Origin: Natronococcus sp. AD-5
GTDB lineage: Archaea; Halobacteriota; Halobacteria; Halobacteriales; Natrialbaceae
DNA length: 64,000 bases
Assembly (NCBI RefSeq): GCF_030734285.1
Contig: NZ_CP132294.1
Location: 2,108,001-2,172,000 of the forward strand
Direction of reading: 5' to 3'
A model generated the notes under the pieces. That model ran no database searches, was not told the origin of the DNA, and saw only the letters and a list, made by a program, of their open reading frames with translations. Position numbers and translations under genes: made by a program. Position 1 is the first letter of the stretch; each line of letters starts with the position of its first letter. Of this stretch, positions 39,053 through 61,369 are shown piece by piece.

Positions 39053-41668
39053 TCAGCCGTCGGTTTTACCGTCACCTGCGGGTTGGTGGTCGCCGGCGGA
39101 TTCGGTCGTCGAGAGTTTTTCGGCCGCGTCGACGAGTCGCCCGGTCTGTTCGCGGTCGGGTTCGCGGAGGATCGACGCCACGGACGCCTGCTCGACGATC
39201 CGTCCGTCGTGGAGGACGGCGATCTCGTCGGCGAACGTGCTCGCCTGGGCGACATCGTGAGTGATATGGAGCAAGGTGATCCCGCGTTCGGCGACCAGTT
39301 CGTAGAGGAGTTCGAGGAGTTCCTCCTGAAGCGGCGCATCCAGCATCGACGTGGGCTCGTCGGCGACGAGCAGCGAGGGCTCGAGGACGAGGGCTCGAGC
39401 GAGGGCCACTCGCTGGCGCTCGCCGCCGGACAATTCGGACGAGTAGCGGCGGGCGTACGCCGCGGCGGGCTCGAGACCGACGTCGGCGAGCGCCGCCCGG
39501 ACGCGCTCGGTGCGCGCCGATTCCGCTCCCACCTCGTGGATGTCGAGCGGTTCCCGAACGATCCGCTCGACGGTCCGGTTGGGGGCGAGCGAGCTGTAGG
39601 GGTCCTGGAACAGGTAGTGGTCCTCTCGTCCGCGGCGCTTCGGATCGAGTGACGACCACTGGCCGACGGGCTCGCCGTCGATCCGGACGACCCCCGAGTC
39701 GGGTGTGAGTAACCCGAGGGCCATCTTGCCGAGCGTGGTCTTGCCGGCGCCGCTCTCGCCGAGGAGTGCGACCGACCGGCCCCGGTCGACGCGGAGGTCG
39801 GCGCCGTCGAGCACGCGCTCGTCGCCGAAGGATTTGGTGATATCCTCGTAAACCAGATGCGGATCCGTTTGGTCTGCGGGCGGCCGCCCGTCCGTCGCCT
39901 GATCGAGCGACGGCATCGTCGTTCGGGCGTCGAGTAACGCTTCGGTGTAGGGATGGGCCGGCGCCGTTCGAAGCCGGTCCGTGGCCCCGACCTCGACGAC
40001 CGTCCCGTCCCGCATCACGGCGATCCGATCCGCGAGGCGAGTTACCGCCGCCAGGTCGTGGGAGATCACCACCAGCGAGAAGTCCCGCTTCGCCTGGAGC
40101 CCCTCGAGCAGTTCGAGGACGCGCACCGTCGTCACCACGTCGAGGCCCGTCGTCGGTTCGTCGACGACGAGCACCGCGGGATCGTTCACGAGCGCCATCG
40201 CGATCACGCCGCGCTGGCACATGCCGCCGCTGAGTTCGTGGGGATGCCGGTCGTAGCTCTCCGGGGGTAATCCGACGCTCTCGAGGGTATCGCGCGCGAT
40301 TTCCGCCGCCCGGTCGCGCTCGACCGGCCGATGGACCCGTACCGCCTCGACGAGTTGCTCTTCGAGAGTCAGTCGCGGATCGAGGGCGTTCATCGCCTCC
40401 TGGGGAACGAACGAGATCGCGTCGCCGCGAACGTCCGCGAGGTCGACGGATTCAGCGCGGTCGCGGTCGGCGTACAGCGTGACGCGGCCGTCGGTGACCC
40501 GGGCCGGAGGCCTGAGGAGATCGAGCAGTGCGAGCGCGACGCTGCTCTTCCCGCTGCCGGACTCGCCGACGATTCCGAGGCGTTCGCCCGCCCGCAGGTC
40601 GAGATCGACGTCGTCGACCGCGGCGTCGGGGCCGGTATCGTACTCGACGGTGAGATCGGCGACCTCGAGGACGGGCGCCGAATCGAGACGCGATCCGCCG
40701 TCGGTGGTCGCGCCGCCCTCGTCTCCGCTCGAGCGCGGCTCGTCGCGGCCGGTCCGGACGACGTCGATGTCGGCGCCCGGGACCGTCGTGCCGACGCTGC
40801 GACGGCGTGCGCCGGTACGTCGCTCGACGCCGAGCGTGACGAAGATGAACGACAGGACGCTGCAGGTGATGGCCAGGCCCGGCGGAATCACCCACCACTT
40901 CCACGCTTCGGTCAAAAACGCGCTTCGCTGCTGGGCGTAGAACAGGATCGTCCCCCAGCTCGGCGCCGTCGGGTCGCCGAGTCCGAGGAAGGAAAGCGCC
41001 GCCTCGAGCAGGATGGCCATGCTCACGGCCCTGGCGTACTGTGCGACGACGATCAGCGACACCGCGGGGACGACGTACCGCGTGGCGACGTGGAACGCGG
41101 ACGCGCCCATCGACCGCGAGGCTTCGATGTACTCCCGGTTCCGGATCGAGAGGACCTCGGAGCGGAGCTCCCTGGCGGGCCGCGCCCACATCACGGCCGA
41201 CAGGACGCCGATGGTCGTCCACAGCCCCGGCCCCAGCACCGCCGCGACGACGATGATCAGGGGGAGAAACGGGATCGTCAGGACGATGTCGACGAACCGC
41301 ATCACGCTCCGATCGGTCCGACCGCCGAGGAGCCCCGCGGTGACGCCGACGGCGGTGCCGACGAGGATGGCGACCGTTCCGGCCACGATCCCGACGAGCA
41401 TCGAGACCCGCGCCCCGACCAGCAGCAGCGAGAGGATGTCGTGGCCCACGTCGTCGGTGCCGAGGAGGTGGTCCTCGCCGGGCTCCGCAAACGGCGGGCC
41501 GACCATCTCGTCGGCCGGATACGGCGCGAGCGCCGGTCCAAGCGCGCCGACGGCGACGAAGACGAGGACGCCGATGCCGCCGACGACGGCGAACCACTCG
41601 CGCCGTCCGCCGGCTGCCGGCGCGGAGGCGAGCAAGCGGCCGAGAACGCCGTTCCGGTCGTCGCTCAC
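39053..41668 (-). CDS. Fused nickel/peptide ABC importer: permease + two ATPase domains
   Basis: One 871-residue chain carries what is normally three proteins. Residues about 1-300 are a DppC/NikC permease ('DHLLGTDDVGHDILS', then the EAA loop 'EYIEASRSMGASAF'). About 325-590 is a DppD/NikD-type ATPase with Walker A 'GESGSGKSS' and signature 'LSGGMCQRG'. About 605-865 is a DppF/NikE-type ATPase with 'GESGAGKTT', 'LSGGERQRV' and 'LVADEPTSMLD'. The start is a GTG overlapping the stop of the upstream permease (GTGA), so coupling is tight. The PepT family moves oligopeptides, nickel or other solutes. Position beside a complete [NiFe]-hydrogenase maturation set favours nickel, but that is inference. 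Confidence 0.9.
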   Translation of the reverse strand: MSDDRNGVLGRLLASAPAAGGRREWFAVVGGIGVLVFVAVGALGPALAPYPADEMVGPPFAEPGEDHLLGTDDVGHDILSLLLVGARVSMLVGIVAGTVAILVGTAVGVTAGLLGGRTDRSVMRFVDIVLTIPFLPLIIVVAAVLGPGLWTTIGVLSAVMWARPARELRSEVLSIRNREYIEASRSMGASAFHVATRYVVPAVSLIVVAQYARAVSMAILLEAALSFLGLGDPTAPSWGTILFYAQQRSAFLTEAWKWWVIPPGLAITCSVLSFIFVTLGVERRTGARRRSVGTTVPGADIDVVRTGRDEPRSSGDEGGATTDGGSRLDSAPVLEVADLTVEYDTGPDAAVDDVDLDLRAGERLGIVGESGSGKSSVALALLDLLRPPARVTDGRVTLYADRDRAESVDLADVRGDAISFVPQEAMNALDPRLTLEEQLVEAVRVHRPVERDRAAEIARDTLESVGLPPESYDRHPHELSGGMCQRGVIAMALVNDPAVLVVDEPTTGLDVVTTVRVLELLEGLQAKRDFSLVVISHDLAAVTRLADRIAVMRDGTVVEVGATDRLRTAPAHPYTEALLDARTTMPSLDQATDGRPPADQTDPHLVYEDITKSFGDERVLDGADLRVDRGRSVALLGESGAGKTTLGKMALGLLTPDSGVVRIDGEPVGQWSSLDPKRRGREDHYLFQDPYSSLAPNRTVERIVREPLDIHEVGAESARTERVRAALADVGLEPAAAYARRYSSELSGGERQRVALARALVLEPSLLVADEPTSMLDAPLQEELLELLYELVAERGITLLHITHDVAQASTFADEIAVLHDGRIVEQASVASILREPDREQTGRLVDAAEKLSTTESAGDHQPAGDGKTDG

Positions 41669-42663
41669 GGTGCCGACCCCTCCCGTTCGGCGGTCGTCCG
41701 CGGATCGAGCCGCGCGTACGTCAGGTCGGCGACCAGGTTCGCCCCGATCACGGTGACGGTGAGGAGCAGAAACGCCCCCTGCAGCGTCGGGTAATCGCGA
41801 GCGACGGCGGCGTCGAAGATCAGCCGCCCGACGCCGGGATAGGTGAAGACGGTCTCGATCACCACGGCTCCGCCGATCGCGGCGCCGACCTGGAGGGTGA
41901 ACCGGGTGTACACCGGCAGGAGCGAGTTCGGAACCGCGTGTCGGAGCAGCACTTCCCGGTCCGAGCACCCCTTGGCCCGCGAGAGCAGCAGGAAGTCCTC
42001 GCCGAGCGTCGACAGCACCGAGTTCCTGGCGATGAGGTAGATCCCGCCCAGGTGGGTGAGCGACAGGGCCGCGACCGGCAGCGTCAGGTGCCAGAGCACG
42101 TCGCGGATCGCTCCGAGAGCGGTCGTTCCGGCGTCGAGCGACCGCATCCCGTAGGAGGGGAACCAGCCGAGCCAGGCCGCGAAGATCGCGATGAACAGCA
42201 TGCCGACCCAGAACCCCGGCGCCGACATCGCGAAGACGACCGCGGTCACGAGCCCGACGTCGGTCCGGTCTCCCTCGTGCCAGGCCGAGAGCGCCCCGAG
42301 CAGCGTCCCGCAGACGACGGCGATGAGGAGCGCCGACCCGACCAACAGCAGCGTCCACGGGAGCCGGGCGAGCAGTACGTCGCTCACGGGCTGGCCGTAC
42401 ATGACCGACGTACCGAGGTCTCCCCGGAGGATGCCGACGAGGTACTCCCAGAACTGAACGGGCAGCGGCCGATCGAGCCCGTACACCGCGAGCACCTCCC
42501 GGCGTTCCTCGGGGCCGAGTTCGGTGGCCTCGGGGCCGATGAGGTACAGCAGCGGATCGCCCGGCGCGAGGCGGGGCAGCGCGAAGTTGATCGCTATCGC
42601 AATCAGGAACGTCATCCCGTACTCGAGCGTTCGCCGACCCCACGTCCCGGCTGCCCGCTCCAT
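41665..42663 (-). CDS. DppB/NikB-type ABC permease
   Basis: The 332-residue permease has six helices. 'FLIAIAINFALPRLAPGDP' opens the family, 'VLAVYGLDRPLPVQFWEYL' is the conserved periplasmic-side segment, and 'LLSRAKGCSDREVLLRHAVP' is the EAA loop that contacts the ATPase. It lies two bases behind the binding-protein gene and overlaps the fused permease-ATPase gene by 4 bases, so the three form one operon for one importer. The Met at 42663 gives the standard length; the frame continues upstream without conserved features and overlaps the binding-protein gene. Confidence 0.92.
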   Translation of the reverse strand: MERAAGTWGRRTLEYGMTFLIAIAINFALPRLAPGDPLLYLIGPEATELGPEERREVLAVYGLDRPLPVQFWEYLVGILRGDLGTSVMYGQPVSDVLLARLPWTLLLVGSALLIAVVCGTLLGALSAWHEGDRTDVGLVTAVVFAMSAPGFWVGMLFIAIFAAWLGWFPSYGMRSLDAGTTALGAIRDVLWHLTLPVAALSLTHLGGIYLIARNSVLSTLGEDFLLLSRAKGCSDREVLLRHAVPNSLLPVYTRFTLQVGAAIGGAVVIETVFTYPGVGRLIFDAAVARDYPTLQGAFLLLTVTVIGANLVADLTYARLDPRTTAEREGSAP

Positions 42664-42665
42664 GG

Positions 42666-44438
42666 TCAGTCGAACGTTCTGGTGACCGCCGCGTCGCGCG
42701 CGTCCGACTCGAGGAACGAGTACTTGTGCGTGATCCCGAAGCCAGGCGATTCGGCCCACGCGTCGTGGGAGTCGGGTCGGTACGCCTGCAGCGACAGAGG
42801 GTACCAGAGCGGAATCGCGACCGGCTGCTCGTTGTGGAGGCGGTGCATCTCGTGGAGCGCGTCGACCTGCTCGTCGATCGTCTCCGCGTCGAAGTACTCC
42901 TCCTCCAACTCCTCGTACGTCGGGTACTCGAGGTCCTCCGGATCGACGTCGTGATCGCCCAGCAGCCCCTGGTCCGGATCGACGTTCCACAGCAGGTTCG
43001 GCCCGCCGCGGTGGTTCATTAGGAACTGATCGGGGTCCGCCGAGAGGTGGAGGTTGGTAAACGAGATGTACATGTCGAAGGCGTCGAGGTCGCCGAAGAA
43101 CCCGCGGACGGTTCCGGGATCGGTCGTCACCACCTCGAGGTCGAACCCGAAGTCGTCGAGCTGGGCGGCGATGAGCTGGGCGGCGCGGATGTACTGCGGT
43201 TCGTTGGAGGCGACGGTCAGCTCGAAGGAGAGCGGCTCGCCCTCCGGCGACTCTCGGATTCCGTCGTCGCGCTCCTCGTAGCCGAGGTCGTCGAACGCCT
43301 CGCGAGCCTCCTCGGGACGGTACGGAATCTCCAGGTCGGGCGCCGTCCACGGCGAGCGGGGGTGCGGGAACCCCTCGGTGCCGGAGATCGCCTCCCCGAG
43401 CATGACGACGTCGACGATCGCGTCGATGTCGAGCGCTCGCGACAGCGCCCACCTGAAGTCGTGATCCCGGAACGGAAGCTGCGAGAAGTTGAGCCTGAGT
43501 TCGACCCCCTGGAGCTGGGTCGCCCTCGCGACCTCGATCTCGTCGTTTCCCTCGAACTCCCGGAGCGTCTCCGGCGGAATCGAGCGAACCGTCGAGTCGA
43601 GTTCACCCGTCTTTAGCGCCGTGAACGTCGCGGACGGGTCCGGAATGATCGGCACGACGATCTCGTCGACGGTCGTCTCGCCGAGGTAGTACTCGTCGGT
43701 CGCCTCGAACCGGAGGCGTTCGCCCTCCTCGTACTCGACGAGTTCGTACGGACCGGTCCCGACGGGCATCCCCTGGTACTCGAGGGGCTCTTCGACCTCC
43801 GACCAGACGTGTTCGGCCATGATCGGTAGATCGGCGAAGGTGAGCTGCTCGAGCGTCGGCACCGGATACGCGGTCTCGAAGCGAACCGTCTCGTCGTCCT
43901 CGGCTTCGATCGTCGGGATCTCCGGCACCTGGCCGACGTGGTGGGCGTGTCTGGAGTGGGGGCCGTCGCGATAGAAGCGGTAGGAGAACACGACGTCGTC
44001 GACGGTGAACGGTTCGCCGTCGTGCCACTCGACGCCGTCGCGAACGGTCGCCAGCCACGTCGTCTCGTCGACCCGTTCTGATTCGGTCGCGAGCGCGGGC
44101 ACCGGCTCGTCCACCTGGGGAGAGGGCAGGAACAGTCGGTCGAACACGAGGTCGTTGAGCCAGTCCCACCTGGCGTTCATCGCGATGTAGGAGTTAAGCG
44201 GCGCGCCGGGATCGAGGATGATGGAGATCCGGAGCGCGTCGTCGCTCGCCCCGTCGTCCTCGGCGCCGATGTCGCCGTCCTCGAGCAGTCCGCCACAGCC
44301 CGCGAGCGACGCTGCACCGGCCGCTCCGAGCGACGAGAGGACGGCTCGGCGTCGAGCCGAGACGCCCGCTCTCGATTCGCGCGATCGGTCGGACGCTGGC
44401 GAGCGATCCCGCCCTGAGGGGTTGTTTGGGTCGATCAT
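42666..44438 (-). CDS. Family-5 extracellular solute-binding lipoprotein (NikA/DppA-like)
   Basis: The 590-residue protein has a Tat signal ('SARRRAVLSSLGAAG') with lipobox 'SLAGC', so it is lipid-anchored outside. The family-5 binding-protein core follows: 'VEWHDGEPFTVDDVVFSYRF', 'TGPYELVEYEEGERLRFEA', 'LRLNFSQLPFRDHDFRWALS' and a C-terminal 'PVAIPLWYPLSLQAY'. It catches substrate for the two downstream permease components. Binding pockets for peptide and for nickel cannot be separated by eye. A TATA-like box and an inverted repeat lie just upstream (44501-44541). Confidence 0.92.
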   Translation of the reverse strand: MIDPNNPSGRDRSPASDRSRESRAGVSARRRAVLSSLGAAGAASLAGCGGLLEDGDIGAEDDGASDDALRISIILDPGAPLNSYIAMNARWDWLNDLVFDRLFLPSPQVDEPVPALATESERVDETTWLATVRDGVEWHDGEPFTVDDVVFSYRFYRDGPHSRHAHHVGQVPEIPTIEAEDDETVRFETAYPVPTLEQLTFADLPIMAEHVWSEVEEPLEYQGMPVGTGPYELVEYEEGERLRFEATDEYYLGETTVDEIVVPIIPDPSATFTALKTGELDSTVRSIPPETLREFEGNDEIEVARATQLQGVELRLNFSQLPFRDHDFRWALSRALDIDAIVDVVMLGEAISGTEGFPHPRSPWTAPDLEIPYRPEEAREAFDDLGYEERDDGIRESPEGEPLSFELTVASNEPQYIRAAQLIAAQLDDFGFDLEVVTTDPGTVRGFFGDLDAFDMYISFTNLHLSADPDQFLMNHRGGPNLLWNVDPDQGLLGDHDVDPEDLEYPTYEELEEEYFDAETIDEQVDALHEMHRLHNEQPVAIPLWYPLSLQAYRPDSHDAWAESPGFGITHKYSFLESDARDAAVTRTFD

Positions 44439-44500
44439 CGCGTTACTTCTGATTGCCGAACCGAATTCGACATTTTGGAGTGTGCTGCATCAACGACCGG

Positions 44501-45707: not shown

Positions 45708-46088
45708 TCAACGCTCCGCTTGCAGCGCCGGTTTGCAGTCCACGACCGGCGAGCCGTCGAGCCCGCGAACGCGGAGTTCCCGACCCGTGCGATCCGGTAG
45801 CAGGCACGAGCAGATCCCGAGCGGGTTCGGTCGGTGCGGCGTTCGCTTTGCAAACGCGCCGACGCCGTTCTCGTCGACGAGCGCGTCGCGGTCGGCGCGG
45901 TCGGCCCAGTAGACGACGGTCAGCCGGTAACAGTCGTCGATTCCGGCGAGCGCGTCCGCGTACGGTTCGAAGACCTCGATCGTCGCTTCGGCGTCGGCGG
46001 CGAAGCCCTGGTGCGGGGCGTCCTCGGGCGACTCGTACGGCGTGCGAGCGACGCCGACGGGGACGAGTTCCGGACGGTGAGCCGTCAC
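45708..46088 (-). CDS. trmO: TrmO/YaeB-family tRNA methyltransferase
   Basis: The 126-residue product belongs to the UPF0066/TsaA family, now known as TrmO, which methylates N6-threonylcarbamoyladenosine at position 37 of some tRNAs. Conserved pieces are 'VGVARTPYESPEDAPHQG', 'IEVFEPYADALAGID', 'RTPHRPNPLGI' and 'LRVRGLDGSPVVDCKP'. It overlaps the end of hypF by 4 bases, so translation is coupled. HypF and the t6A enzymes share YrdC and Kae1 folds, which makes the linkage to a t6A-modifying enzyme curious. It may only be a shared operon. Confidence 0.85.
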   Translation of the reverse strand: MTAHRPELVPVGVARTPYESPEDAPHQGFAADAEATIEVFEPYADALAGIDDCYRLTVVYWADRADRDALVDENGVGAFAKRTPHRPNPLGICSCLLPDRTGRELRVRGLDGSPVVDCKPALQAER

Positions 46089-48475
46089 GGCTCGACCCCC
46101 CCTCGAGCGGCTGCCACCGCGACCTGGCCGTAGGCGATCCCGCCGTCCCCCGGCGGGACGCGCTCGTTGCCGAGGAACTCGAACCCCGCATCGGTGACCC
46201 GCTCGCGGACCCGCGTCGCGATACGATCGTTGTACGCAACGCCGCCGGTCAGCGCGACGGCCTCCCGGCTCCGCTCGGCCGCCGCGTCGACGGCGATGGT
46301 CGCCAGTCCGCGAGCCAGCGCGTCCTGAGCGGTGGCCGCGACGCGCGCCCGGGAGCGCCCCGACTCGAGCAGGTCGACGAGCGCGGCGAAGAGTCCGGGG
46401 GTGTCCACCACCGGTCGCCCGTCGACCCGGCCGAAGGGGACGCCGATGCCGACCGGCGTTCCGTCGACTGCGAGCGCCTCGAGCTTCATCGCCGGCTCGC
46501 CCTCGTAGCGCCGCTCGCCGCAGACGCCGAGCAGGGCGGCGACCGCGTCGAGGAACCGGCCGGCGCTGCTCGTCGCGGGGACGTTGACGTCAGTCTCGAG
46601 CTGCTGGCGGACGAGGTTGCGCTCCGCGTCGCCGTCCGGGAACGGTACGCCGTGTCGGACGAGCGTTCGAACGGCGGCGTCCGGGTCGCGGGCGTAGAGC
46701 AGCCCCGCGGCCATCCGACCGGGGTGGCGCGTCGCCCGGTCGCCGCCCGGCATCGGCACCGACGCGAGCCCGCCGACCCGCTCGAAGTCGGCCAGGGCCG
46801 CGTCGAGCACCTCGCCGCCCCAGACGGTCCCGTCCGGGCCGTACCCCACCCCGTCGAGCGTGAGCGCGATCGCGCGATCGAGGTCGTGCTCGGCGAGGAC
46901 GCTCGCGGCGTGGGCGTGGTGGTGCTGGACGGCGACGCTGCGCTCGGCGAGGCCGTCGGCGACCAGCCGGCGGGCGTAGTCGGTCGTGTTGAACTCGGGG
47001 TGGGCGTCGTGGGCGACGATCGGGGGATAGTCAAGTCCGGCGACGCCGAGCAGGTGGTCGACGGCGTCCTCGAAGAAGGCGAGCGTCTCGACGTCGTCGA
47101 CGTCGCCGACGTACTGGGTGAGATAGCACTCGCCCTCGTGCAGGACGCCGGCGGTCGCGTCGAGTTCGGGTCCCGTTCCGAGGACGGGCGTCGAGGGCGC
47201 GTTCTCGAGCGGGACCGGAACCGGGGCGAACCCTCGCGAGCGGCGGACGAGCCGCCGATCGCCGTCGACGATCCGCGCGAGGCAGTCGTCACAGCGGGCG
47301 ACGATGCGCCGGTCGTGGAGCAAGGCGCCGTCGGCGACGGCCCCGAGGCCGTCGAGCAGCGGGCCGTTGTCGGTCAGCATCGGCGTCCCGGGGAGGTTCG
47401 CGGACGTCATCACCAGCGGCGCGTCGACTTCGTCGAACAGGAGGTGATGGAGCCCCGAGTACGGCAGCATCGCGCCGACGGTGTGGAGGCCGGGCGCGAC
47501 GCCGGCCGCGATCGGGGTCGCGCGGGCGTTCGAGGCCGTAGCGGCTCGATCCCGTTCGAGCAGGAGAATCGGTCGCTGGGGGGACTCGAGCGCCGCCCGC
47601 TCGGGTTCGGAAACGCTCGCGAACGACTTGATCGCGTCGACGTTCGGCGCCATCACGGCGAACGGCTTCTCCGGGCGACCGGTCCGCTCGCGGAGCCGCG
47701 CGACGGCCGCGGCGTCCGTCGCGTCGCAGGCGAGGTGGGCGCCCCCGATCCCCTTCAGTACGACCGTCTCGCCGCGGCCGAGCGCCCCGGCGGCGCGTTC
47801 GATCGCCGCCCGTCCGTCGGCCGGCTCTTCGAGGTCGGGGAACGGATCCCGGCCCTCGTCCGCGCCGTTCTTCACCGCTGCACCCTCGCGAACGCGGCCG
47901 TACCGCAGCGTCGGACCGCAGTTCGGACAGGCGATCGTCTGGGCGTGGTAGCGGCGATCGGTCGGCTCCTCGTACTCCTCGCGGCAGGCGTCGCAGAGGG
48001 GAAACGCCGCCATCGAGGTCGTCGGCCGATCGTACGGCAGGGACTCGATGACGGTAAAGCGCGGACCGCAGTCGACGCAGGAGGTCGCCCAGTACCCGCG
48101 GTACCGGGAGTCCGAGTCGCGGACGTCCGCGAGGCACGGCTCGCAGATCGCCGTATCCGGCGGGATGGTCCCGCCGCCGTCCTCGTCGGTCCCGGCGGAG
48201 TCGACGATCTCGAAGGTCTCGAACGCGGGATCGTCGACCGGCTCTCTGTCGACTCGAACGCTCTCGACCCGCGAGAGCGGCGGCGCGTTCTCCCGCAGGT
48301 CCGCGAGCAGCGCGTCGATCGCGTCGCTCGCACCCTCGAGTTCGATGCGAACGCCGGCGTCGCCGAGGTTTTGGACGGTCCCGCGCAGTCCGCGGGCGGC
48401 CGCGCGCCGGTGGACGAACGGGCGAAACCCCACGCTCTGGACGACGCCGGTTACGCGGACGGTCGCGCGTTCCAT
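46085..48475 (-). CDS. hypF: Carbamoyltransferase HypF
   Basis: The 796-residue protein makes the thiocarbamate that becomes the cyanide ligand of [NiFe]-hydrogenase. It has an N-terminal acylphosphatase domain ('RVTGVVQSVGFRPFVHR'), two zinc-finger pairs ('CEPCLADV', 'CVDCG', 'CDACREEY', 'CPNCG'), a YrdC domain ('LKGIGGAHLACDATD'), and a C-terminal Kae1-like carbamoyltransferase domain with 'VAVQHHHAHAASVLAE' and 'VALTGGVAYND'. All domains are complete and the length is normal. It uses carbamoyl phosphate and ATP and passes the group to HypE. It is divergent from hypC-hypD-hypE, with 190 bp between. trmO overlaps its 3' end. Confidence 0.97.
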   Translation of the reverse strand: MERATVRVTGVVQSVGFRPFVHRRAAARGLRGTVQNLGDAGVRIELEGASDAIDALLADLRENAPPLSRVESVRVDREPVDDPAFETFEIVDSAGTDEDGGGTIPPDTAICEPCLADVRDSDSRYRGYWATSCVDCGPRFTVIESLPYDRPTTSMAAFPLCDACREEYEEPTDRRYHAQTIACPNCGPTLRYGRVREGAAVKNGADEGRDPFPDLEEPADGRAAIERAAGALGRGETVVLKGIGGAHLACDATDAAAVARLRERTGRPEKPFAVMAPNVDAIKSFASVSEPERAALESPQRPILLLERDRAATASNARATPIAAGVAPGLHTVGAMLPYSGLHHLLFDEVDAPLVMTSANLPGTPMLTDNGPLLDGLGAVADGALLHDRRIVARCDDCLARIVDGDRRLVRRSRGFAPVPVPLENAPSTPVLGTGPELDATAGVLHEGECYLTQYVGDVDDVETLAFFEDAVDHLLGVAGLDYPPIVAHDAHPEFNTTDYARRLVADGLAERSVAVQHHHAHAASVLAEHDLDRAIALTLDGVGYGPDGTVWGGEVLDAALADFERVGGLASVPMPGGDRATRHPGRMAAGLLYARDPDAAVRTLVRHGVPFPDGDAERNLVRQQLETDVNVPATSSAGRFLDAVAALLGVCGERRYEGEPAMKLEALAVDGTPVGIGVPFGRVDGRPVVDTPGLFAALVDLLESGRSRARVAATAQDALARGLATIAVDAAAERSREAVALTGGVAYNDRIATRVRERVTDAGFEFLGNERVPPGDGGIAYGQVAVAAARGGVEP

Positions 48476-48666: not shown

Positions 48667-49044
48667 ATGTGTCTCGGAGTACCCGGCGAAGTGAAATCGG
48701 TCGACGGGTTGCGGGCGACCGTCGACTTCTGGGGGGTGAAAAAAGAGGTTCGACTCGACACGGTCGACGCGCCCGTCGAACCGGGCGACTACATCCTCAA
48801 TCACGTCGGATTCGCGATTCGCCGCATCCCGGACGACGAGATCGACGAGACGCTGGCGCTGTACGAGTCGTTCGTGGACGGCGACCCGGACGACATGCTG
48901 CGGGAGGACGTCGTCGACGAGATCGAAGCCGGCGGCAGCGTCCCGGCGAACGCGGCCGACGGAGCGCTCGCGGGAGACGACGACGAACCGGCCGACGCGG
49001 ACGACGCCGAGGACCTCCTCGAGGAGTTGGGAATCGATGTCTGA
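48667..49044 (+). CDS. hypC: Hydrogenase chaperone HypC, with acidic C-terminal extension
   Basis: The start was set at the Met of 'MCLGVPGEV', because HypC needs Cys2 for holding the Fe(CN)2CO group; an upstream in-frame start would bury it. The OB-fold continues ('VDFWGVKKEVRLDTVD', 'PGDYILNHVGFAIRRI'). Normal HypC has about 75-95 residues. This one has 125, the last 45 being an Ala/Asp/Glu tail ('DDDEPADADDAEDL'), a typical haloarchaeal addition. HypC works with HypD and shuttles the iron centre to the large subunit. It overlaps hypD by 8 bases. Confidence 0.95.
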   Translation: MCLGVPGEVKSVDGLRATVDFWGVKKEVRLDTVDAPVEPGDYILNHVGFAIRRIPDDEIDETLALYESFVDGDPDDMLREDVVDEIEAGGSVPANAADGALAGDDDEPADADDAEDLLEELGIDV

Positions 49045-52632: not shown

Positions 52633-53223
52633 CTAGAGCCCGACGTCAGCGTCGACCAGCCCGAGGTAATCGCGCGGCTCCTCGCCGATCAGCTCCGGCG
52701 GGAGCGCGCGCTCGTAGTTCGAGATGTCGCCCTCCGGAATGAGCGTTCGGCCGCTGGGACGGTAGATGAAACACGGTGCGTCGGCCTCGCGGGCGCGCTC
52801 CTCGAGGTCGGACCAGACGGCCGTCGGCTGGAGGGACAGCCCGAACGAGAACCGTCCCGCCCCGATAGCTCCCGATTTCTCGTCGAACCGGTCGGCCTCC
52901 TCGGCCTCGAACTCCGCGTCGGTCATCCAGGCCAGGTACGGCGCGTCAGCCGGCGGCCGGGCGAAGAAGACGTCCCACGCCCGGTCGGCGTCGAACGTCA
53001 CCCACGCGCCGCGGTCGTCGACGCCGTCGATCACGAGTTCGAACGTTCCCCCTTCGTCGTGCCAGACGAACGTCGCGTTGTGGCCGGGAACCCGGACGCC
53101 GCGGTGATGGTAGAGCACGCCGCCGACGTCGTCGCCCAGGTTCTCGCGGACGTCGTGGACGCCGGTCTCGCGAACCTGGGCGAGGAACTCGGGAAGGTGG
53201 TACAGCGCCGTTCGGTCGGCCAT
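52633..53223 (-). CDS. Unknown protein co-transcribed with CooC-like ATPase
   Basis: The 196-residue protein has no family I recognise. It has two halves with good globular character: 'GVLYHHRGVRVPGHNATFVW' with strand-rich sequence and several His, and 'APYLAWMTDAEFEAEEADRF' followed by 'GRFSFGLSLQPTAVW'. There is no signal peptide or membrane segment. It follows the CooC-like gene by 27 bp in the same direction, so the two are almost surely one transcript. Given its neighbours it may be an accessory factor in nickel or hydrogenase handling, but this rests on position only. Confidence 0.7.
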   Translation of the reverse strand: MADRTALYHLPEFLAQVRETGVHDVRENLGDDVGGVLYHHRGVRVPGHNATFVWHDEGGTFELVIDGVDDRGAWVTFDADRAWDVFFARPPADAPYLAWMTDAEFEAEEADRFDEKSGAIGAGRFSFGLSLQPTAVWSDLEERAREADAPCFIYRPSGRTLIPEGDISNYERALPPELIGEEPRDYLGLVDADVGL

Positions 53224-53250: not shown

Positions 53251-54021
53251 TCAGGTGTGCGTCTCGAGCAGGTCGTCGGCCAGCTCTCGAATCGCCCTGA
53301 CGCCCGGCGCGTCGGGGTCCTGGTCGATCGGCGCGGCTCCCTCCTGGTCTGCGTGGCGAATCGCGTCGTCGAACGGAACGGTGGCGGCGATCTCGAGGTC
53401 GTTCTCCGCGCAGAACTCCTCGATGGCCTCGCGGTCGTGGTCGTCGCGGACCTTGTTCGCGACGACGCGCACGTCGGGGATGTCCAACTCGTCGGCGAGG
53501 TCGCGGGTTCGTCGGCCCGTCTCGAGGGACTTGTAGTAGGGCTCGACGACGACCAGCAGCGTGTCGACGTCCTTCGCGGTTCCCCGTCCGAGGTGCTCGA
53601 CGCCGGCGACCATGTCCATCACGGTCACCTCCTCGCGGTCCTCGACGACCTCCGAGAGCACCTCGCGGGCGGTCGAGTGGGCGCGACACATGCAGCCGCT
53701 GCCGGCGTGCTCGACCTCGCCCATCTTGAGCAGCCGGATTCCGTCGGGAGCCTCGACGCCGTAGTCGTCGATGATCACCCCCGGCGTCTTCGCGAGCTCG
53801 AGTTCCGTCTCGCCGTCGGCGGTTTCGACCCGCTTGAGCAGGTCGCCGGGGATCGGCGCCACGTCGCGCTCGCGCGGAATGCCGAGCGTGAGCGCGAGGT
53901 TCGGATTCTCGTCGTCGTCGATCGCCAGGACGTCGCACCCCTCCACCGCGAAGGATCGCGCGAGCGTCCCCGAGACGGTGGTCTTTCCCGAACCGCCCTT
54001 GCCTGACACTGCGACTTTCAT
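53251..54021 (-). CDS. cooC: CooC-like MinD/ParA ATPase, candidate nickel-insertion factor
   Basis: The 256-residue protein begins with the deviant Walker A 'KVAVSGKGGSGKTTVSG'. It then has 'VLAIDDDENPNLALTLG', and the Cys-x-Cys pair 'GSGCMCRAH' (Cys110, Cys112), the nickel-binding motif of CooC that inserts nickel into carbon monoxide dehydrogenase. 'VMDMVAGVEHLGRGTAKDVD' and 'VVANKVRDDHD' are family switch and adenine regions. No CO dehydrogenase gene is in view. The gene lies inside a hydrogenase island that lacks HypB, the usual nickel GTPase, so it may serve the hydrogenase instead. CooC relatives are, however, also used by other nickel and acetyl-CoA enzymes. Confidence 0.88.
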   Translation of the reverse strand: MKVAVSGKGGSGKTTVSGTLARSFAVEGCDVLAIDDDENPNLALTLGIPRERDVAPIPGDLLKRVETADGETELELAKTPGVIIDDYGVEAPDGIRLLKMGEVEHAGSGCMCRAHSTAREVLSEVVEDREEVTVMDMVAGVEHLGRGTAKDVDTLLVVVEPYYKSLETGRRTRDLADELDIPDVRVVANKVRDDHDREAIEEFCAENDLEIAATVPFDDAIRHADQEGAAPIDQDPDAPGVRAIRELADDLLETHT

Positions 54022-54809: not shown

Positions 54810-55511
54810 ATGGACGCCTGGACGCGACTGCGAGCGGTCGCGAGCCGCGGAGGCCGGAGGCCAGCCGCCGACCGGCTCCGGACGGACGGTGGCGACCGAC
54901 CGGATCGAGAGGATCGTCCGGCGGAAGAGCAAGAACCCGACTCGGGAGCGGACGAGTCGGAGGAGGCGCCGCCCGACGTCGAGGAGTCGTCCGTCGACGT
55001 CGTCGAATCCGGCGAGGCCGAGCCGGCGGAGCCGCGCTGGGAACGGATCGATCCGGACGACATCCCGGAGTTCGAGATCCGCGCCGACGAACCGGTCGTC
55101 TCCGGATCGACGGGCGACTCCAGTGTAGCGGACGACGAGGCCGATCCGGCGGCGGGCCGACCGAACGCGGCGCGAAGCCCCGGGCAATCCCGCATCAAAC
55201 GGGAGGGAACCGAAGGGTACGTCGCCGCGCTCGAGATCTGTGCGCGGCTGCCCGACGACGTTCGGCTTCCCGAGGAAGCGGCGGAGGTCGTCCCGGCCGC
55301 CGTCGAGGCGGAACTCGAGGAGGACATTCGGGCGTTCGCGCTCGCGGAGTTCGGAACCGACGCGCCCTCGGTCGAGACGCTGTCGTTCGACGAGGTCGAC
55401 GGCGAGATCTGGATGCGCCTCCGACTCGGCATCACGCCGGAGGCGTTTACGGATCTCGATCCCGACGAGATCCGCACGCACGCCCTCCAGGAGCTCGAGG
55501 GATTCCTCTGA
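54810..55511 (+). CDS. Haloarchaeal protein with disordered N-terminus and C-terminal domain of unknown function
   Basis: The 233-residue protein has about 125 residues of charged, low-complexity sequence (Arg-rich first, then Asp/Glu-rich). A conserved-looking domain of about 100 residues follows, from 'GTEGYVAALEICARLPDDVR' to 'ALAEFGTDAPSVETLSF' and 'IWMRLRLGITPEAFTDLDP'. I have seen this C-terminal domain in other haloarchaea but know no function. There is no signal or membrane helix. Confidence 0.65.
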   Translation: MDAWTRLRAVASRGGRRPAADRLRTDGGDRPDREDRPAEEQEPDSGADESEEAPPDVEESSVDVVESGEAEPAEPRWERIDPDDIPEFEIRADEPVVSGSTGDSSVADDEADPAAGRPNAARSPGQSRIKREGTEGYVAALEICARLPDDVRLPEEAAEVVPAAVEAELEEDIRAFALAEFGTDAPSVETLSFDEVDGEIWMRLRLGITPEAFTDLDPDEIRTHALQELEGFL

Positions 55512-55637
55512 GCGACGCCGACCGGTTGACGGAACTGGTCGGATCGATCGACGCCGGCGCGGCCGGTCGACCGAGGTAGCGTCCGCCGGCAGTGATAGCT
55601 AATATCACGCAATGCCTCTCTACACCTGGGGAGTACC

Positions 55638-56111: not shown

Positions 56112-56158
56112 TCGCCTCGTGCACTTCCGATCCCATTTTTCGGACGCCGTGCCGCGAG

Positions 56159-56542
56159 TCAGTGGTGCGCGTGGTCGTGTTCGGACGGACACTCCTCCGC
56201 GGCGTGATCGGGATCATGGCACCAACAGTCCGGCCCACAGTCGGTGTGCGAAGCGGTAAATCCCTGCATCTCCGCGAACTCGTCGGCGAACCGTCGCTTG
56301 GCCTCCCGTTCGCCGCTCTCGGTGAAGACGTACCCGCGAGGCGTCTCCCGGATCCGCTCTCGCGCCTCGAGGTCCGCGAACGTTCGCTCGACGACGTCGG
56401 CCGGCGCGTCGAGGAACCCCCGGAGATCCCCCGTGGCGACGGCCTCCTCGATCCCCTCGCCGATCATCCAGTACATCGCCTCCAGCACCTCGTCGCGCCA
56501 GAACAGTTCGTCGACCTCGTCGGTGCCGGCGTCGCGGGCCAT
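56159..56542 (-). CDS. Small helical protein with Cys/His-rich C-terminal tail
   Basis: The 127-residue protein (an alternative Met nine codons upstream exists) is helical and winged-helix-like over residues 10-95 ('RDEVLEAMYWMIGEGIEEAV', 'ETPRGYVFTESGEREAKRRF'). It ends in a tail with Cys at 102, 106, 108 and 118 and His at 99, 109, 113, 122, 124, 126 and 127. Such tails bind nickel or zinc, as in HypB, SlyD and UreE. It is not HypA: the Met-His-Glu start and zinc-ribbon spacing are absent. It is divergent from the hydrogenase protease gene 74 bp away, so a role in nickel storage, delivery or sensing for the hydrogenase is plausible. Confidence 0.75.
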   Translation of the reverse strand: MARDAGTDEVDELFWRDEVLEAMYWMIGEGIEEAVATGDLRGFLDAPADVVERTFADLEARERIRETPRGYVFTESGEREAKRRFADEFAEMQGFTASHTDCGPDCWCHDPDHAAEECPSEHDHAHH

Positions 56543-56616
56543 GACTCGAGGTACCGCTCCCGGCGCCATAAACCTGTGCGGCGTGGTAGCACAAGGATTA
56601 TCGTCGCCATCGGCGA

Positions 56617-57135
56617 ATGGGTCGTGTGAGCGACCGAATCCTCGTCGCGTGCATGGGGAACCTGCTTCGCGGAGACGACGGCTTCGGCGTCGCGGTCGCG
56701 GAGGCGCTCGAGGAGCGCGACTTCCCGCCGTCGGTGACGGTCGTCGAGGTCGGCATCTCCGGCGTGAGCATGGCCCAGGAACTGCTCGACGAGTACGACG
56801 CGCTCGTCCTGGTCGACGCGATGGAACGCGGCGACGAGCCGGGCACGCTCTACGTCGAACGAGCGACGGTCCCGAGCCTGGAGGGGTACTCGAAACGCGA
56901 GATCGGCGGCTTCGCGGCCGACATGCACCAGACCGATCCGTCGAAGGTGTTGGTGCTCGGGGAAGCCCTCGGCGTCCGTCCGGAGCCGACGATTCTGGTC
57001 GGCTGCGAGCCGTACGAGACCGACGACCTCGAGGACCGACTGAGCGACCCGGTTCGGGAGGCGGTGCCGCGAGCCGTCGAACACATCGAACTCGTCCTCG
57101 ACGAACTCCGCTCGAACGGACGGGTCGACGGCTGA
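56617..57135 (+). CDS. Hydrogenase maturation endopeptidase (M52, HyaD/HybD-like)
   Basis: The 172-residue protease has the M52 fold: 'RILVACMGNLLRGDDGFGVA' with the nickel-ligand acid (Asp21 here, Glu in HybD), 'ALVLVDAMERGDEPGT' with Asp67, and 'ADMHQTDPSKVLVLG' with His104. These correspond to Glu16, Asp62 and His93 of HybD. The enzyme removes the C-terminal peptide of the large subunit after nickel insertion. It is 71 bp upstream of the small-subunit gene in the same direction. Its length is usual. Confidence 0.93.
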   Translation: MGRVSDRILVACMGNLLRGDDGFGVAVAEALEERDFPPSVTVVEVGISGVSMAQELLDEYDALVLVDAMERGDEPGTLYVERATVPSLEGYSKREIGGFAADMHQTDPSKVLVLGEALGVRPEPTILVGCEPYETDDLEDRLSDPVREAVPRAVEHIELVLDELRSNGRVDG

Positions 57136-57158
57136 GCTATTACTTCTATTTTTCGAAC

Positions 57159-57174
57159 CGGGCATTTATGCCCG
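57159..57174. promoter_or_regulatory. Palindrome over the TATA region of the hydrogenase operon
   Basis: CGGGCAT-TT-ATGCCCG is a perfect 7-bp inverted repeat whose centre, 'catttatg', sits where a TATA box for the small-subunit gene is expected (32-47 bases before its ATG). A protein bound here would compete with TBP/TFB. Confidence 0.45.
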
Positions 57175-57205
57175 CCGTCGCCCTTACTGCTACCAGTGAT
57201 TGGTA

Positions 57206-58420
57206 ATGGATAGCACACTCGACGAACCGACCCGGGCGGCGGAGAACGACGAGATCGGCCTCGAGTCGGACACCGACGAGGGTGCGCTGTGGCCCGAGGA
57301 TCCGGAGGGAACGGCGGAAGGGTTGCGGGCCGGCGAGAGCGAGACGGTAGCGGAAGAAGGGGACGTCCTGCACGCCTACTGGCTCGCCGGCGAGAGCTGC
57401 GACGGCTGTTCGGTGTCGGTGCTCTCGGCCACGGAGCCGGGGCTCGAGCACCTGCTGCGGGGCGACATTCCCAATCTGCCGCGGATCGAACTCCACCACC
57501 CCGTCCTGTCCGTCGAGTGGGGAGACGAGTACGTCGCCGAGTTCCAGGCGGCCGCGAACGGCGAGCGGGACCCGTACGTGGTGATCGTCGAAGGGAGCGT
57601 GCCGAACGAGCGCCTCATCGAGGGCGACGGCTACTGGATCTCCCTCGGCGAGCAGGACGGCGAACCCGTCAAGATGGTCGACTGGCTCGACCGGCTCGCC
57701 CCGGGCGCGGCCGCGGTGCTGGCCATCGGCACCTGCGCCACCTGGGGCGGCATTCCGGCGGCGAAGGGGAACGCCACCGACGCGATGGGGACGATGGACT
57801 ACCTCGGACGGGACTACCGGAGCGTCCTCGGGCTTCCCGTCGTCAACGTCCCTGGCTGTGCGCCGATCGGCGACAACTTCATCGAGACCGTCGCACACCT
57901 CCTGTTCTACGTCGAGGACGTCGGTCCGCTGCCCGAACTCGACGAACTCGGCCGACCGAAGTGGCTGTTCGGCGAGACCGTCCACAGGCGGTGTGAACGC
58001 GGCTCGTACTACGAGGAGGGCGACTTCGCCGAGGAGTACGGGAGCGAGAAGTGTCTCGTCAAGGTGCCCGGCTGCTGGGGCCCCGTCGTGAAGTGTAACA
58101 TGCCTTCGCGGCGCAACAGCGACGGGATCGGCGGTTGCATGAACATGGGCGGAAAGTGCATCGGCTGTACGATGCCCGGCTTCCCGGACAAGTTCACCCC
58201 GTACTTCACGCAACCGCCGGGCGCGGGCATCTCCTCGACGGCCTCGAAGTTCCTCGGCGGCGTCATGCGGCGGCTCCGCCAGCGCTCCATCGAGAAGGCC
58301 GATCGCGAGGTCCGCTGGGACGAGGCCCCCGGCATCGAAGAGCGCATGTACCGGTGGATGCAGCGCCGCGACGCACACTACGCGGAGGAGGAAAAGCCCG
58401 AACCGGAGTGGGGTGGCTGA
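57206..58420 (+). CDS. [NiFe]-hydrogenase small subunit, group 1h/5-like
   Basis: The 404-residue electron-transfer subunit has an acidic N-terminal extension of about 55 residues and no Tat signal. The proximal cluster ligands are 'AGESCDGCSV' (Cys65, Cys68), 'AIGTCATWGG' (Cys177) and 'PGCAPIGDN' (Cys218). The distal ligands are His260 and Cys263 ('TVHRRC'), Cys283 and Cys290 ('KCLVKVPGCWGP'); the medial are Cys297, 311, 318 and 321. The pattern 'LFGETVH', 'GCWGPVVKCN' and 'CTMPGFPDKF' matches the actinobacterial-type uptake group. That group normally has Asp instead of Cys68. It lacks a membrane helix at its C-terminus. It is 71 bp after the protease and 5 bp before the 94-residue protein gene. 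Confidence 0.95.
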   Translation: MDSTLDEPTRAAENDEIGLESDTDEGALWPEDPEGTAEGLRAGESETVAEEGDVLHAYWLAGESCDGCSVSVLSATEPGLEHLLRGDIPNLPRIELHHPVLSVEWGDEYVAEFQAAANGERDPYVVIVEGSVPNERLIEGDGYWISLGEQDGEPVKMVDWLDRLAPGAAAVLAIGTCATWGGIPAAKGNATDAMGTMDYLGRDYRSVLGLPVVNVPGCAPIGDNFIETVAHLLFYVEDVGPLPELDELGRPKWLFGETVHRRCERGSYYEEGDFAEEYGSEKCLVKVPGCWGPVVKCNMPSRRNSDGIGGCMNMGGKCIGCTMPGFPDKFTPYFTQPPGAGISSTASKFLGGVMRRLRQRSIEKADREVRWDEAPGIEERMYRWMQRRDAHYAEEEKPEPEWGG

Positions 58421-58425
58421 GTCGC

Positions 58426-58710
58426 ATGTGTTTCAGTAACCTTCCGATCGAGTTCGACGACGAGGGAAATCCGCACCTCGCGAGCGAGGCCGACGGCGTC
58501 GAGCGACCTGGGGCGGAAACCGAATCGGTCGCCTGTGATTGCGACGACGCGACGGCCGACGTCCCGCTCGAGGATGCGGACCCCGAGGCGATGTACGAGG
58601 CGATTCTGGCGGAGATGCCACGGGAAGCCCGCGAGCGGCTCACCAGCCGGGCCGGCCGGTCGCGTCGTCCGGCCTCGTCCGACCGAACGGAACGACCCAC
58701 GAACCCATGA
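58426..58710 (+). CDS. 94-residue protein between hydrogenase subunits, sharing the large-subunit N-terminus
   Basis: The start 'MCFSNLPIEFDDEGNPHL' nearly repeats the large subunit's own start 'MTFDNLPIEFDDEGNPIL', and the DNA is almost identical over about 35 bases. The rest is different: a middle with 'SVACDCDDATADVPLED' and a helix 'DPEAMYEAILAEMPREARER', ending in a basic tail. The gene overlaps the large-subunit ATG by 4 bases, so it is translated together with both subunits. Known roles for such in-operon proteins are scaffold or chaperone functions; none can be assigned here. The two Cys in 'CDC' may bind metal. No family is recognised. Confidence 0.8.
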   Translation: MCFSNLPIEFDDEGNPHLASEADGVERPGAETESVACDCDDATADVPLEDADPEAMYEAILAEMPREARERLTSRAGRSRRPASSDRTERPTNP

Positions 58711-60680
58711 CATTCGACAACCTTCCAATCGAGTTCGACGACGAGGGGAATCCGATCCTCACCGATGAAGCGCGGTTCGCCGTCCCCGGTAAACACGACG
58801 GCGTGGCGGCGAACGGCCTCGGCGACGGCGAAACCAATGGCGGCGAACGGGTGGCCGAAGAGCCGGCGGAACGCGACGGCCACCTCGGCGAGAGCGTCAA
58901 GGACGTGAACATCGATCCGGTGACGCGCGTCGCCGGGGCGCTCGCGTTCCACGCGAAGGCCGACCTCGAGAACCGCGAGGTGCTCGAGGCCCACTCGCAG
59001 GCGACGCTGTTCCGCGGCTACGAGATCATCCTCGAGGGGCGCGATCCGCGAGACGCCATCGACCTCTCGAGTCGCGCCTGCGGCGTCTGCGGGGCGGTGC
59101 ACTCGATCGTCTCGTCGATGGCCCTCGAGATGGCCTTCCCCGTCGAACCGCCGCCGATGGGCGTCTGGGCGCGAAACATGGGACAGGCCGCGGCGTTCCT
59201 CTACGACCACTCGCTGCACCTGTTCCTGCTGGCCGGCCCGGACTACTCGGAATCGCTGCTCTCCCAGAGCAACCCGGACGTGGTCGAGCAGGCGAAGCGG
59301 ACGAGCGCGCCCCACGCCGACGTCCACGGCTACGAGACGGTCGGCGAGATCATGACCGCGATGAACCCGCTCGAGGGCGAACTCTACCTGGAGGCGCTCG
59401 AGAACACCCGCGAGGCGCGGCAGGCGGCGTCGCTCATGCTCGGCAAGTACCCTCACCCGTCGACCATCGCGCCGGGCGGGCTGACGACGACGCTCACCCG
59501 GACGTCGTTCCAGCAGTTCTACACGCGGCTCAACCACTTCTTCGACTACGCGAAGAAGGTCGCGTTCGTCTGGGACGACCTGCTCGACTTCCTGCTCGAG
59601 AATCTGGAGGGATACGAGCACGTCGGCGAGCGACCGATCAACCTCGTCGGAACGGGCATCTGGGACGATCCCGCGGCGTACAACGCCCGCTACGAGGACG
59701 CCGACGAGTGGGGGCTGGCCCGACTGTCGACGCCCGGCGTCATCGTCGACGGCGAACTGGTGACGACGAACCTGACGGACGTGGACATGGGCATAGAGGA
59801 GTTCGTCGACCACTCCTACTACGAGGACTGGACCGACGACGATGAGCCGCGCTTCTCGGAGACGCCGTCAGGCGGTCCGATCAGCCCGTACCATCCCTGG
59901 AACAAGGAGACGCGCCCGAAGCCGGAGGGGAAGTCCTGGCGCGAGAAGTACACGTGGGGGACTTCGCCCCGATGGGACCGTCAGGTGATGGAGACCGGCC
60001 CCCACTCCCGGCACTGGCTGACCGCGATGGCCGAGGAGGTGGAGAACCCGTACATCGAGCCGACCGGCGACGGACTGAACCTCCACCTGCCCGAGACCGA
60101 ACAGCCCGAGATGACGCTGCGCTGGGACGTTCCCGACCGGTTGAACGCGGCCGAGCGGATGCGGGCGAAGGCCTACCACGTCGCCTACTGCTCGCTCGTC
60201 TGTTACACCGGGTTCGTCGAGGCGCTCGATCTCTTAAAACAGGGCGAGTCGGACATCCACGCGCCGTTCGAGGTTCCCTCCTCGGGCACCCGGCGGGGCG
60301 TCGGCTTCTGGGAGGCCGGTCGCGGCTACCTCACCCACCACGTCGTCATCGAGGACGGCGTCATCGACACCTACCAGATCCTGACGCCGAGTACCTGGAT
60401 GGCGTCGCCCACCGATCCCTTCGGTAACCCCGGCCCCTACGAAGAGGCGGCGCTGAACACGCCGCTGCTCGAGGACTTCACCGACGAGGAGGACTTCTCC
60501 GGGATGGACATCCTCCGGTCGATCCGGAGCTTCGACCCGTGTATGCCGTGTACGGTCCACCTGCACACGGACCGCCAGCGCGACGTCATCGCGGAGGACG
60601 TCACCTCCTGCGGCTGTTCGTTCACCGACGGCGACCAGCCCGCAGAGGAGGCGATCCGCGACATCATCAGCGGGGACTGA
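58707..60680 (+). CDS. [NiFe]-hydrogenase large subunit, group 1h/5-like
   Basis: The 657-residue subunit carries the active site. L1 is 'SRACGVCGAVHS' (Cys125, Cys128) and L2 is 'FDPCMPCTVH' (Cys612, Cys615, His618), all four nickel-iron ligands being present. The sequence between ('LFRGYEIILEGRDPRDA', 'PHADVHGYETVGEIM', 'YYEDW', 'GRGYLTHHVVIEDG', 'NPGPYEEAALNTPLLEDF') closely follows the actinobacterial-type high-affinity group. About 65 residues of acidic extension precede the conserved start 'NIDPVTRVAGAL'. After His618 a 39-residue extension with 'SCGC' remains for removal by the M52 protease. No signal peptide is present. H2 oxidation in the cytoplasm with electrons passed to the respiratory chain is inferred. 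Confidence 0.96.
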   Translation: MTFDNLPIEFDDEGNPILTDEARFAVPGKHDGVAANGLGDGETNGGERVAEEPAERDGHLGESVKDVNIDPVTRVAGALAFHAKADLENREVLEAHSQATLFRGYEIILEGRDPRDAIDLSSRACGVCGAVHSIVSSMALEMAFPVEPPPMGVWARNMGQAAAFLYDHSLHLFLLAGPDYSESLLSQSNPDVVEQAKRTSAPHADVHGYETVGEIMTAMNPLEGELYLEALENTREARQAASLMLGKYPHPSTIAPGGLTTTLTRTSFQQFYTRLNHFFDYAKKVAFVWDDLLDFLLENLEGYEHVGERPINLVGTGIWDDPAAYNARYEDADEWGLARLSTPGVIVDGELVTTNLTDVDMGIEEFVDHSYYEDWTDDDEPRFSETPSGGPISPYHPWNKETRPKPEGKSWREKYTWGTSPRWDRQVMETGPHSRHWLTAMAEEVENPYIEPTGDGLNLHLPETEQPEMTLRWDVPDRLNAAERMRAKAYHVAYCSLVCYTGFVEALDLLKQGESDIHAPFEVPSSGTRRGVGFWEAGRGYLTHHVVIEDGVIDTYQILTPSTWMASPTDPFGNPGPYEEAALNTPLLEDFTDEEDFSGMDILRSIRSFDPCMPCTVHLHTDRQRDVIAEDVTSCGCSFTDGDQPAEEAIRDIISGD

Positions 60681-60688
60681 TCCCGCCG

Positions 60689-61369
60689 ATGACGACCGAC
60701 GACGGGTGCGAGGACGACTCTCAGCCGCTGTTCGACGGCCGCGCGGGGACGCTCCGCGATGGAACGGAGTCGGGACCGCTGTTCGACGACGCTTATCAGC
60801 CCGGGGAGTCGGGGGCGGCGGCAGGTCTCGTCGGCGGACGGGACGACGACCCGGTGCTGGTCGCCGGCGTCGGCTACCCGCTGCTCGGCGACCTCGCGCT
60901 CGGAACGGTCGTCGCCTACCGCGTCCTCGAGTGGAACCTCCCCGGCGTAGCGGTCGCCGACTGTAGCCACACGCCCATCGCAGCCTACCAGACGATCGAC
61001 GAGGGCGCCTACGAGACCGTGATCCTGGTCGGAACCGAGAAGCGCGGCGGCGAACTGAACGACGGCGAGCCCTCGGCGAACCCCGGCACCGTCCGCGAGT
61101 ACGACCCCGCGGAGTTCGCGGTCTCCGACGACGACCTCGTCGCGCGGATCGGCGAGTGCGCGATGGGGTCGAACACCGTCGAGAACGTCGTCGTTATCGC
61201 GAACGCGTTCGACGCCCTCCCCGACGAGACGCGAATCATCACGGTCGAACCCGGATACGACTCGTGGGGGACGACCGTCGAGGAATTCACCGCTCCCGTC
61301 GAGGAGGCGCTCGAGGACGTCCTCGAACGGGTGCTCGAGTCCGTAGAGGGTGCCCTCGCCGAGGCGTAG
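60689..61369 (+). CDS. Degenerate M52-protease-like protein
   Basis: The 226-residue protein has an acidic head of about 50 residues, then the M52 core: 'VLVAGVGYPLLGDLALGTVV' lines up with the protease start, and 'ETVILVGTEKRGGE' with the Leu-Val-Asp-Ala strand. The metal ligands are not conserved: Ala replaces the first acid and Gly-Thr the second. A catalytic role is therefore unlikely. It follows the large subunit by only 8 bp and must belong to the operon. It might bind the uncleaved large-subunit tail or act as a chaperone. The homology is by eye, but strand order and length of the core agree. Confidence 0.7.
   Translation: MTTDDGCEDDSQPLFDGRAGTLRDGTESGPLFDDAYQPGESGAAAGLVGGRDDDPVLVAGVGYPLLGDLALGTVVAYRVLEWNLPGVAVADCSHTPIAAYQTIDEGAYETVILVGTEKRGGELNDGEPSANPGTVREYDPAEFAVSDDDLVARIGECAMGSNTVENVVVIANAFDALPDETRIITVEPGYDSWGTTVEEFTAPVEEALEDVLERVLESVEGALAEA

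Follow-up and report, generated by a model that had tools for sequence, protein, structure and literature searches.

The stretch of DNA analysed here (64,000 nucleotides of Natronococcus sp. AD-5, contig NZ_CP132294.1; the window, in what follows) carries on the main replicon of a haloarchaeal genome (5.17 Mb in two contigs, completeness 98.8%) a hydrogen-oxidation island at positions 39053–61369, in which a [NiFe]-hydrogenase is accompanied by a CooC-type ATPase. Window genes were read on both strands with NCBIfam and Pfam profiles. The parts named in the initial annotation (both hydrogenase subunits with NiFe and Fe–S ligands, hypF-hypC-hypD-hypE, an M52 protease and a nickel/peptide ATP-binding cassette (ABC) importer) were all recovered by profile matches; overlooked there were the CooC ATPase, a winged-helix protein with a Cys/His tail, and the lack of hypA and hypB throughout the genome. 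The island is composed as follows (positions in the window):

39053–42643, minus strand: nickel/peptide-type ABC importer open reading frame (ORF), a DppC/NikC-like permease fused in frame with NikD- and NikE-like ATPase domains (NikD equivalog 367.9 bits, cut-off 318.7); in translation the initial ~320 codons resemble out-of-frame sequence.
42666–44438, minus strand: importer substrate-binding lipoprotein, OppA/NikA family (Opp5A_nikA, E 2.6e-33, below the equivalog cut-off).
46085–48475, minus strand: hypF, carbamoyltransferase of CN ligand synthesis (TIGR00143, 778 bits).
about 48667–49044, plus strand: hypC, chaperone (PF01455, TIGR00074).
49037–50197, plus strand: hypD (TIGR00075, 410 bits).
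about 50194–51246, plus strand: hypE (TIGR02124, 358 bits).
52633–53223, minus strand: orf52633, a conserved protein of haloarchaea only (44–82% identity in six other loci, 52% in L054); no family match in Pfam or NCBIfam.
53251–54021, minus strand: cooC-type MinD-family ATPase, proposed nickel insertase; Walker motif GKGGSGKT, C110-x-C112 (match to CooC1, 3kje, E 1.2e-37).
54810–55511, plus strand: orf54810, a conserved acidic protein of haloarchaea only, present in 9/9 haloarchaeal loci; no family match in Pfam or NCBIfam.
56159–56569, minus strand: winged-helix Cys/His-tail protein, 136 aa, tail H-x2-C-x3-C-x-C-x9-C.
56617–57135, plus strand: M52 hydrogenase maturation protease, three metal ligands complete (D20, D67, H104; TIGR00072, 116 bits).
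about 57206–58420, plus strand: [NiFe]-hydrogenase small subunit, proximal motif CDGC.
about 58707–60680, plus strand: [NiFe]-hydrogenase large subunit, C-terminal extension of 39 aa beyond His674 (ORF numbering).
about 60689–61369, plus strand: M52 paralogue (pseudo-protease), two of three metal ligands lost, conserved in 1l/1m/haloarchaeal loci; the ORF was called at 60539–61369, the true start lying nearer ~60689.

The large subunit is the sole [NiFe] large subunit of the genome; its TTG-started ORF is overlong, and conservation begins at ATG 58707 (657 aa). It has kept the C-terminal His, both CxxC motifs (RACGVC; DPCMPC) and all four NiFe-site Cys ligands; the small subunit retains its Fe–S cluster cysteines and His. 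No twin-arginine motif was visible by eye at the N-terminus of either subunit, in line with the earlier remark that both lack a twin-arginine translocation (Tat) signal. Between the two carrier species of the genus the subunits are 94–96% identical, with full ligands and maturation genes, which supports an uptake hydrogenase that is intact and under selection and has its own maturation kit.

Large-subunit identity was 40–42% to bacterial group 1h enzymes (plasmid-borne) and 27–30% to the other listed group 1 enzymes; the closest solved structures for both subunits were HofG/HofK of Cupriavidus necator (5aa5). A scan of named genomes with the large subunit gave 73–76% for two Halobacteriales metagenome-assembled genomes (MAGs), 53% for an Aeropyrum MAG, 47–56% for a bacterial set and 41–45% for classic 1h. 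Group labels were taken from own trees, gene sets and residues; the bacterial set, in which the closest relatives outside the haloarchaea lie, is called 1l/1m-type since most of its members carry small intersubunit membrane genes or TPR and BirA-like genes (criteria of Ray et al. 2022, PMC9561532). In the maximum-likelihood tree 1h, the 1l/1m-type set and the haloarchaeal enzymes formed one clade (100/100) on a long stem, distant from 1d, 1c, 2a, 2b and the other haloarchaeal hydrogenases; the large subunit did not fall with group 1g/1e or group 3, the placement that the initial annotation had named as fatal to its reading. Within this clade the haloarchaeal enzymes were separate (100/99), as was group 1h (100/100, all haloarchaeal rows outside); a joint grouping of haloarchaea and 1h gave p 0.375 in the approximately unbiased (AU) test, and the deep order among 1h, 1l, 1m and haloarchaea is not settled by these data. 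The loci that carry the 1m set of genes fell into two large-subunit clades (L068, L070, L110 and L096, L098, L103, L106), a single clade being rejected (AU p 0.034).

A small-subunit residue also sets the groups apart. At the fourth proximal-cluster position, established as a cluster ligand in the C. necator enzyme (5aa5), Asp (CDGD) was read in 25/25 group 1h small subunits, and every haloarchaeal or 1l/1m-type small subunit read had Cys (CDGC). Asp at this position (CSGD) was also seen in a haloarchaeal small subunit outside 1h (L004/L137, genome G346), with a CO dehydrogenase–CooC pair close by. The initial annotation had described both subunits as of the group 1h/5 pattern: kinship at the level of the lineage stands (identity, 5aa5, the joint clade), and membership of group 1h was rejected, given the separate clade, the Cys ligand, the presence of CooC and the lack of HypA/HypB. 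By sequence, the enzyme is a member of a separate haloarchaeal clade within the 1h/1l/1m lineage, outside 1h proper. With group 1h (HofGK/AHH of C. necator; Hhy of actinobacteria) it shares the superclade, ~40% (large) and ~50% (small) identity, the missing Tat signal, adjacent subunit genes, an M52 protease and nearby hypFCDE; the haloarchaeal loci differ in lacking the DUF5947, DUF6084 and NifU genes of 1h and in carrying CooC, the Cys/His-tail protein and the pseudo-protease.

In the profile search of the whole window genome neither HypA nor HypB gave a match over cut-off. Among 35 hydrogenase-bearing haloarchaeal genomes, HypA was found over cut-off in 28/28 with only other hydrogenase types and in 0/7 with the present type, and HypB was distributed in exactly the same way. 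If the genomes were independent, the chance of so clean a 7-of-35 split would be ~1.5e-7 (1 in 6.7 million choices); they are not, and the real surprise is smaller. Completeness below 100% would leave room for an assembly gap, or the searches might have missed the genes; this is very improbable, as both genes are missing from all seven carriers at 98.8–100% completeness, four of these are in one to three contigs, and identical searches found both genes in every one of the 28 sister genomes.

A CooC-type ATPase was present in the hydrogenase locus of all seven carriers (75–92% identity), and CooC at ≥76% identity was found in exactly these seven among 391 Halobacteria genomes. Eight other haloarchaea (L137–L144: G346, G178, G069, G273, G129, G317, G359, G227) hold CooC at 36–41% identity, which adjoins the catalytic subunit of anaerobic Ni-CO dehydrogenase (CODH) in 6/6 tested; no Prismane/CODH protein was detected in any of the seven carrier genomes, and retention of CooC for a CO dehydrogenase was rejected on that ground. 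The window protein is a MinD-type ATPase with a CxC metal site, and its closest solved relative is Carboxydothermus CooC1 (3kje), ahead by ~80 bits; Walker A and the CxC pair are common to both, and the two differ in that the carriers lack CO dehydrogenase and in that hydrogenase-linked CooC is parted from CODH-linked CooC by a 100/99 branch. Identity with the ATP-type HypB of Thermococcus (Mrp/MinD family; 3vx3, 5aun) was considered as well, this being likewise a MinD-family ATPase that serves nickel loading of an archaeal hydrogenase; it was rejected, the match to 3vx3 having E 0.47 only. Thermococcus ATP-type HypB works together with HypA, and that partner is absent from the window genome.

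The bacterial comparison comprised the 1l/1m-type set L054–L111 (58 loci, many on short contigs) and 25 group 1h loci. CooC was present in 39/58 loci of the former and HypA/HypB in none; in group 1h loci CooC was found in 0/25, HypA and HypB together in 22/25. HypA was absent genome-wide from 35 of 44 1l/1m-type genomes; the remaining nine all encode the large subunit of another hydrogenase as well, and in several of them hypA lies on the contig of that gene; HypA was present in 6/6 group 1h control genomes. Group 1l (Hyl; Antarctic/desert soil and marine bacteria) resembles the haloarchaeal system in CDGC, CooC, the Cys/His-tail protein, the pseudo-protease and the lack of HypA/HypB in the locus; it differs in HylTM1-5, five short membrane proteins between the subunit genes, and in a NifU-Rieske protein, neither of which the haloarchaeal loci have (PMC9561532). 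Group 1m (Hhm, Actinobacteriota) shares adjacent subunit genes, a CooC-type ATPase and CDGC; the TPR, BirA-like and small membrane proteins of its loci were not found in haloarchaea. A CooC-type nickel ATPase in group 1m clusters had already been mentioned by Ray et al. (2022, PMC9561532), and HypA/HypB are described as standard in [NiFe]-hydrogenase maturation, for which a review of 2025 requires six Hyp proteins, CooC being unmentioned (PMC12134894). No statement on the loss of HypA/HypB was found in the searchable literature; the original description of group 1l lay outside it, and an earlier remark may stand there. The result of interest here is that CooC appears to have replaced HypA/HypB, and to have done so generally in this lineage.

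An in-frame TGA stands for the first Cys of the CooC CxC pair in 10 of 39 non-haloarchaeal loci (L059, L061, L062, L064, L072, L077, L078, L080, L098, L109; hosts: Chloroflexota, Thermomicrobia, Gemmatimonadota, SAR324, Acidobacteriota, Rubrobacteraceae, Thermoleophilaceae); the window CooC has CxC and no TGA. Past the TGA the reading frame mostly continues at 43–49% identity, L109 being frameshifted further on. A SelA sequence was found in 10/10 TGA genomes (one fragment) versus 12/28 CxC genomes (Fisher p 0.002; 0.012 without the fragment), and the 45 bases after the TGA, in which stem-loops are seen, fold more stably than those after Cys codons (mean z −1.28 versus −0.05, p 0.004). The TGA thus probably encodes selenocysteine, and its occurrence in place of the first Cys in ten loci marks this residue as functionally special. 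CooC is not mentioned in two reviews of prokaryotic selenoproteins; if the reading is true, a nickel chaperone with selenocysteine would be a selenoprotein family missing from both.

It may be argued that CooC acts as a regulator or general assembly ATPase with no link to nickel, and that after the loss of HypA/HypB nickel is inserted generically, through a UreG-like protein or, when its concentration is high, spontaneously. MinD-family ATPases do have many roles, and UreG was proposed to serve the hydrogenase in HypB-lacking bacteria in a paper on Nitrosococcus oceani (PMC7285500); one carrier, G220, gave an 82-bit HypB-like match, in the same score range as second matches beside true HypB elsewhere, and this protein, probably UreG, would fit. 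Matches in the UreG range are absent from the other six carriers; a non-nickel role accords poorly with the ~80-bit lead and the retained CxC site, with the linkage of CooC to such hydrogenase loci in both archaea and bacteria, and with the probable selenocysteine, and such an account is judged unlikely.

The Cys/His-tail protein was found in 54/65 loci of the lineage with H108, C111, C115, C117 and C127 invariant; it belongs to no family in Pfam or NCBIfam. An MntR/DtxR-like winged helix was predicted for it (mean pLDDT 82.5; best Foldseek E 0.003), and the fold call is held with modest confidence. The protein could be a nickel carrier in the place of HypA, or a metal-sensing regulator. The pseudo-protease at 60689–61369 is a clear M52 homologue (hhalign, 99.94% probability to the M52 family) conserved beside the active protease. 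Neither orf52633, orf54810 nor the Cys/His-tail protein showed profile similarity to NifU, DUF5947, DUF6084 or HypA, and diverged forms of these were rejected.

The island is likely to encode a CooC-matured uptake hydrogenase of the 1h/1l/1m lineage, of a separate haloarchaeal clade, made by a route free of HypA/HypB. On this model nickel would enter by the ABC importer; cyanide ligands would come from HypF and HypE, and the Fe(CN)2CO unit would be built and delivered by HypC/HypD. Nickel would be inserted by the CooC-type ATPase, the metal being carried on the CxC pair, with assembly probably aided by the Cys/His-tail protein and the dead M52 paralogue; the M52 protease would then trim the large subunit behind the C-terminal His. 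The mature enzyme would be cytoplasmic-side and H2-oxidising, and its electrons would pass to a respiratory carrier encoded outside the locus. More broadly, the evidence leans towards a second, HypA/HypB-independent pathway of [NiFe] nickel insertion, made up of CooC, the Cys/His-tail protein and the dead protease, reaching from haloarchaea and one Thermoproteota MAG to many bacterial phyla with 1l/1m-type loci, the CooC nickel ligand being selenocysteine in some bacteria.

Several points weigh against the CooC route and the physiology attached to it. CooC serves CO dehydrogenase in other organisms. The seven haloarchaeal carriers cover four genera, and the pattern may stem from few independent events; the genome-wide search for HypB covered haloarchaea, and bacterial genomes were searched for HypA only. 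In the Halobacteriales MAG loci L054 and L055, of the same clade, no CooC, Cys/His-tail or hyp genes were found in the DNA around the subunits. No gene for an electron acceptor lies in the haloarchaeal locus, and the NifU-Rieske protein of bacterial loci was not found there, an apparent NifU-Rieske label being traced to an antisense ORF in a protein cluster and rejected. Two carriers of 1l hydrogenases, Robiginitalea biformata and Marinovum algicola, consumed no H2 in culture (PMC10305171).

This last result fits the alternative of an ordinary uptake hydrogenase of low affinity, or of a set of little-used legacy genes, with no use of trace or atmospheric H2; its patchy distribution (2/9 species of the genus) points the same way. 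Against it stand the subunit conservation between the two species, with ligands and maturation genes complete, which speaks for selection, and the nearest families, 1h and 1l, which include enzymes described as high-affinity (PMC9561532); the alternative is possible, though rated as less than probable. By analogy with its family the enzyme may carry out aerobic, possibly high-affinity, H2 oxidation, and because relatives are so described use of H2 at atmospheric levels is plausible. Haloarchaea had been put forward in the initial annotation as unexpected H2 users; that such a hydrogenase occurs in them is already known, the enzyme of Halopiger salifodinae clustering with 1h/1l, and its use of atmospheric H2 was suggested by Leung et al. 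(2024, PMC11018855), so that the idea is not new. The anaerobic haloarchaeal hydrogenases of Natrarchaeobaculum belong to another type, which comes with cytochrome b and with HypA/HypB.

If true, replacement by CooC throughout the lineage alters how such hydrogenases can be expressed heterologously; the combination of CooC with missing HypA/HypB becomes a simple genomic marker for trace-gas-type hydrogenases beyond 1h, and H2 scavenging by haloarchaea, as suggested for Halopiger, becomes a testable question.

Two neighbouring genes were excluded from the island, being restricted to near relatives: a LipP1-type lipase (51340–52329) between hypE and the CooC block, which one further species of the genus shares, and a gene for a double DUF302 protein (62868–63884), 83% conserved and adjoining the island in two other genomes. 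The G+C content is ~0.49–0.58 at window positions 7000–14000 and 0.66–0.75 across most of the hydrogenase island.

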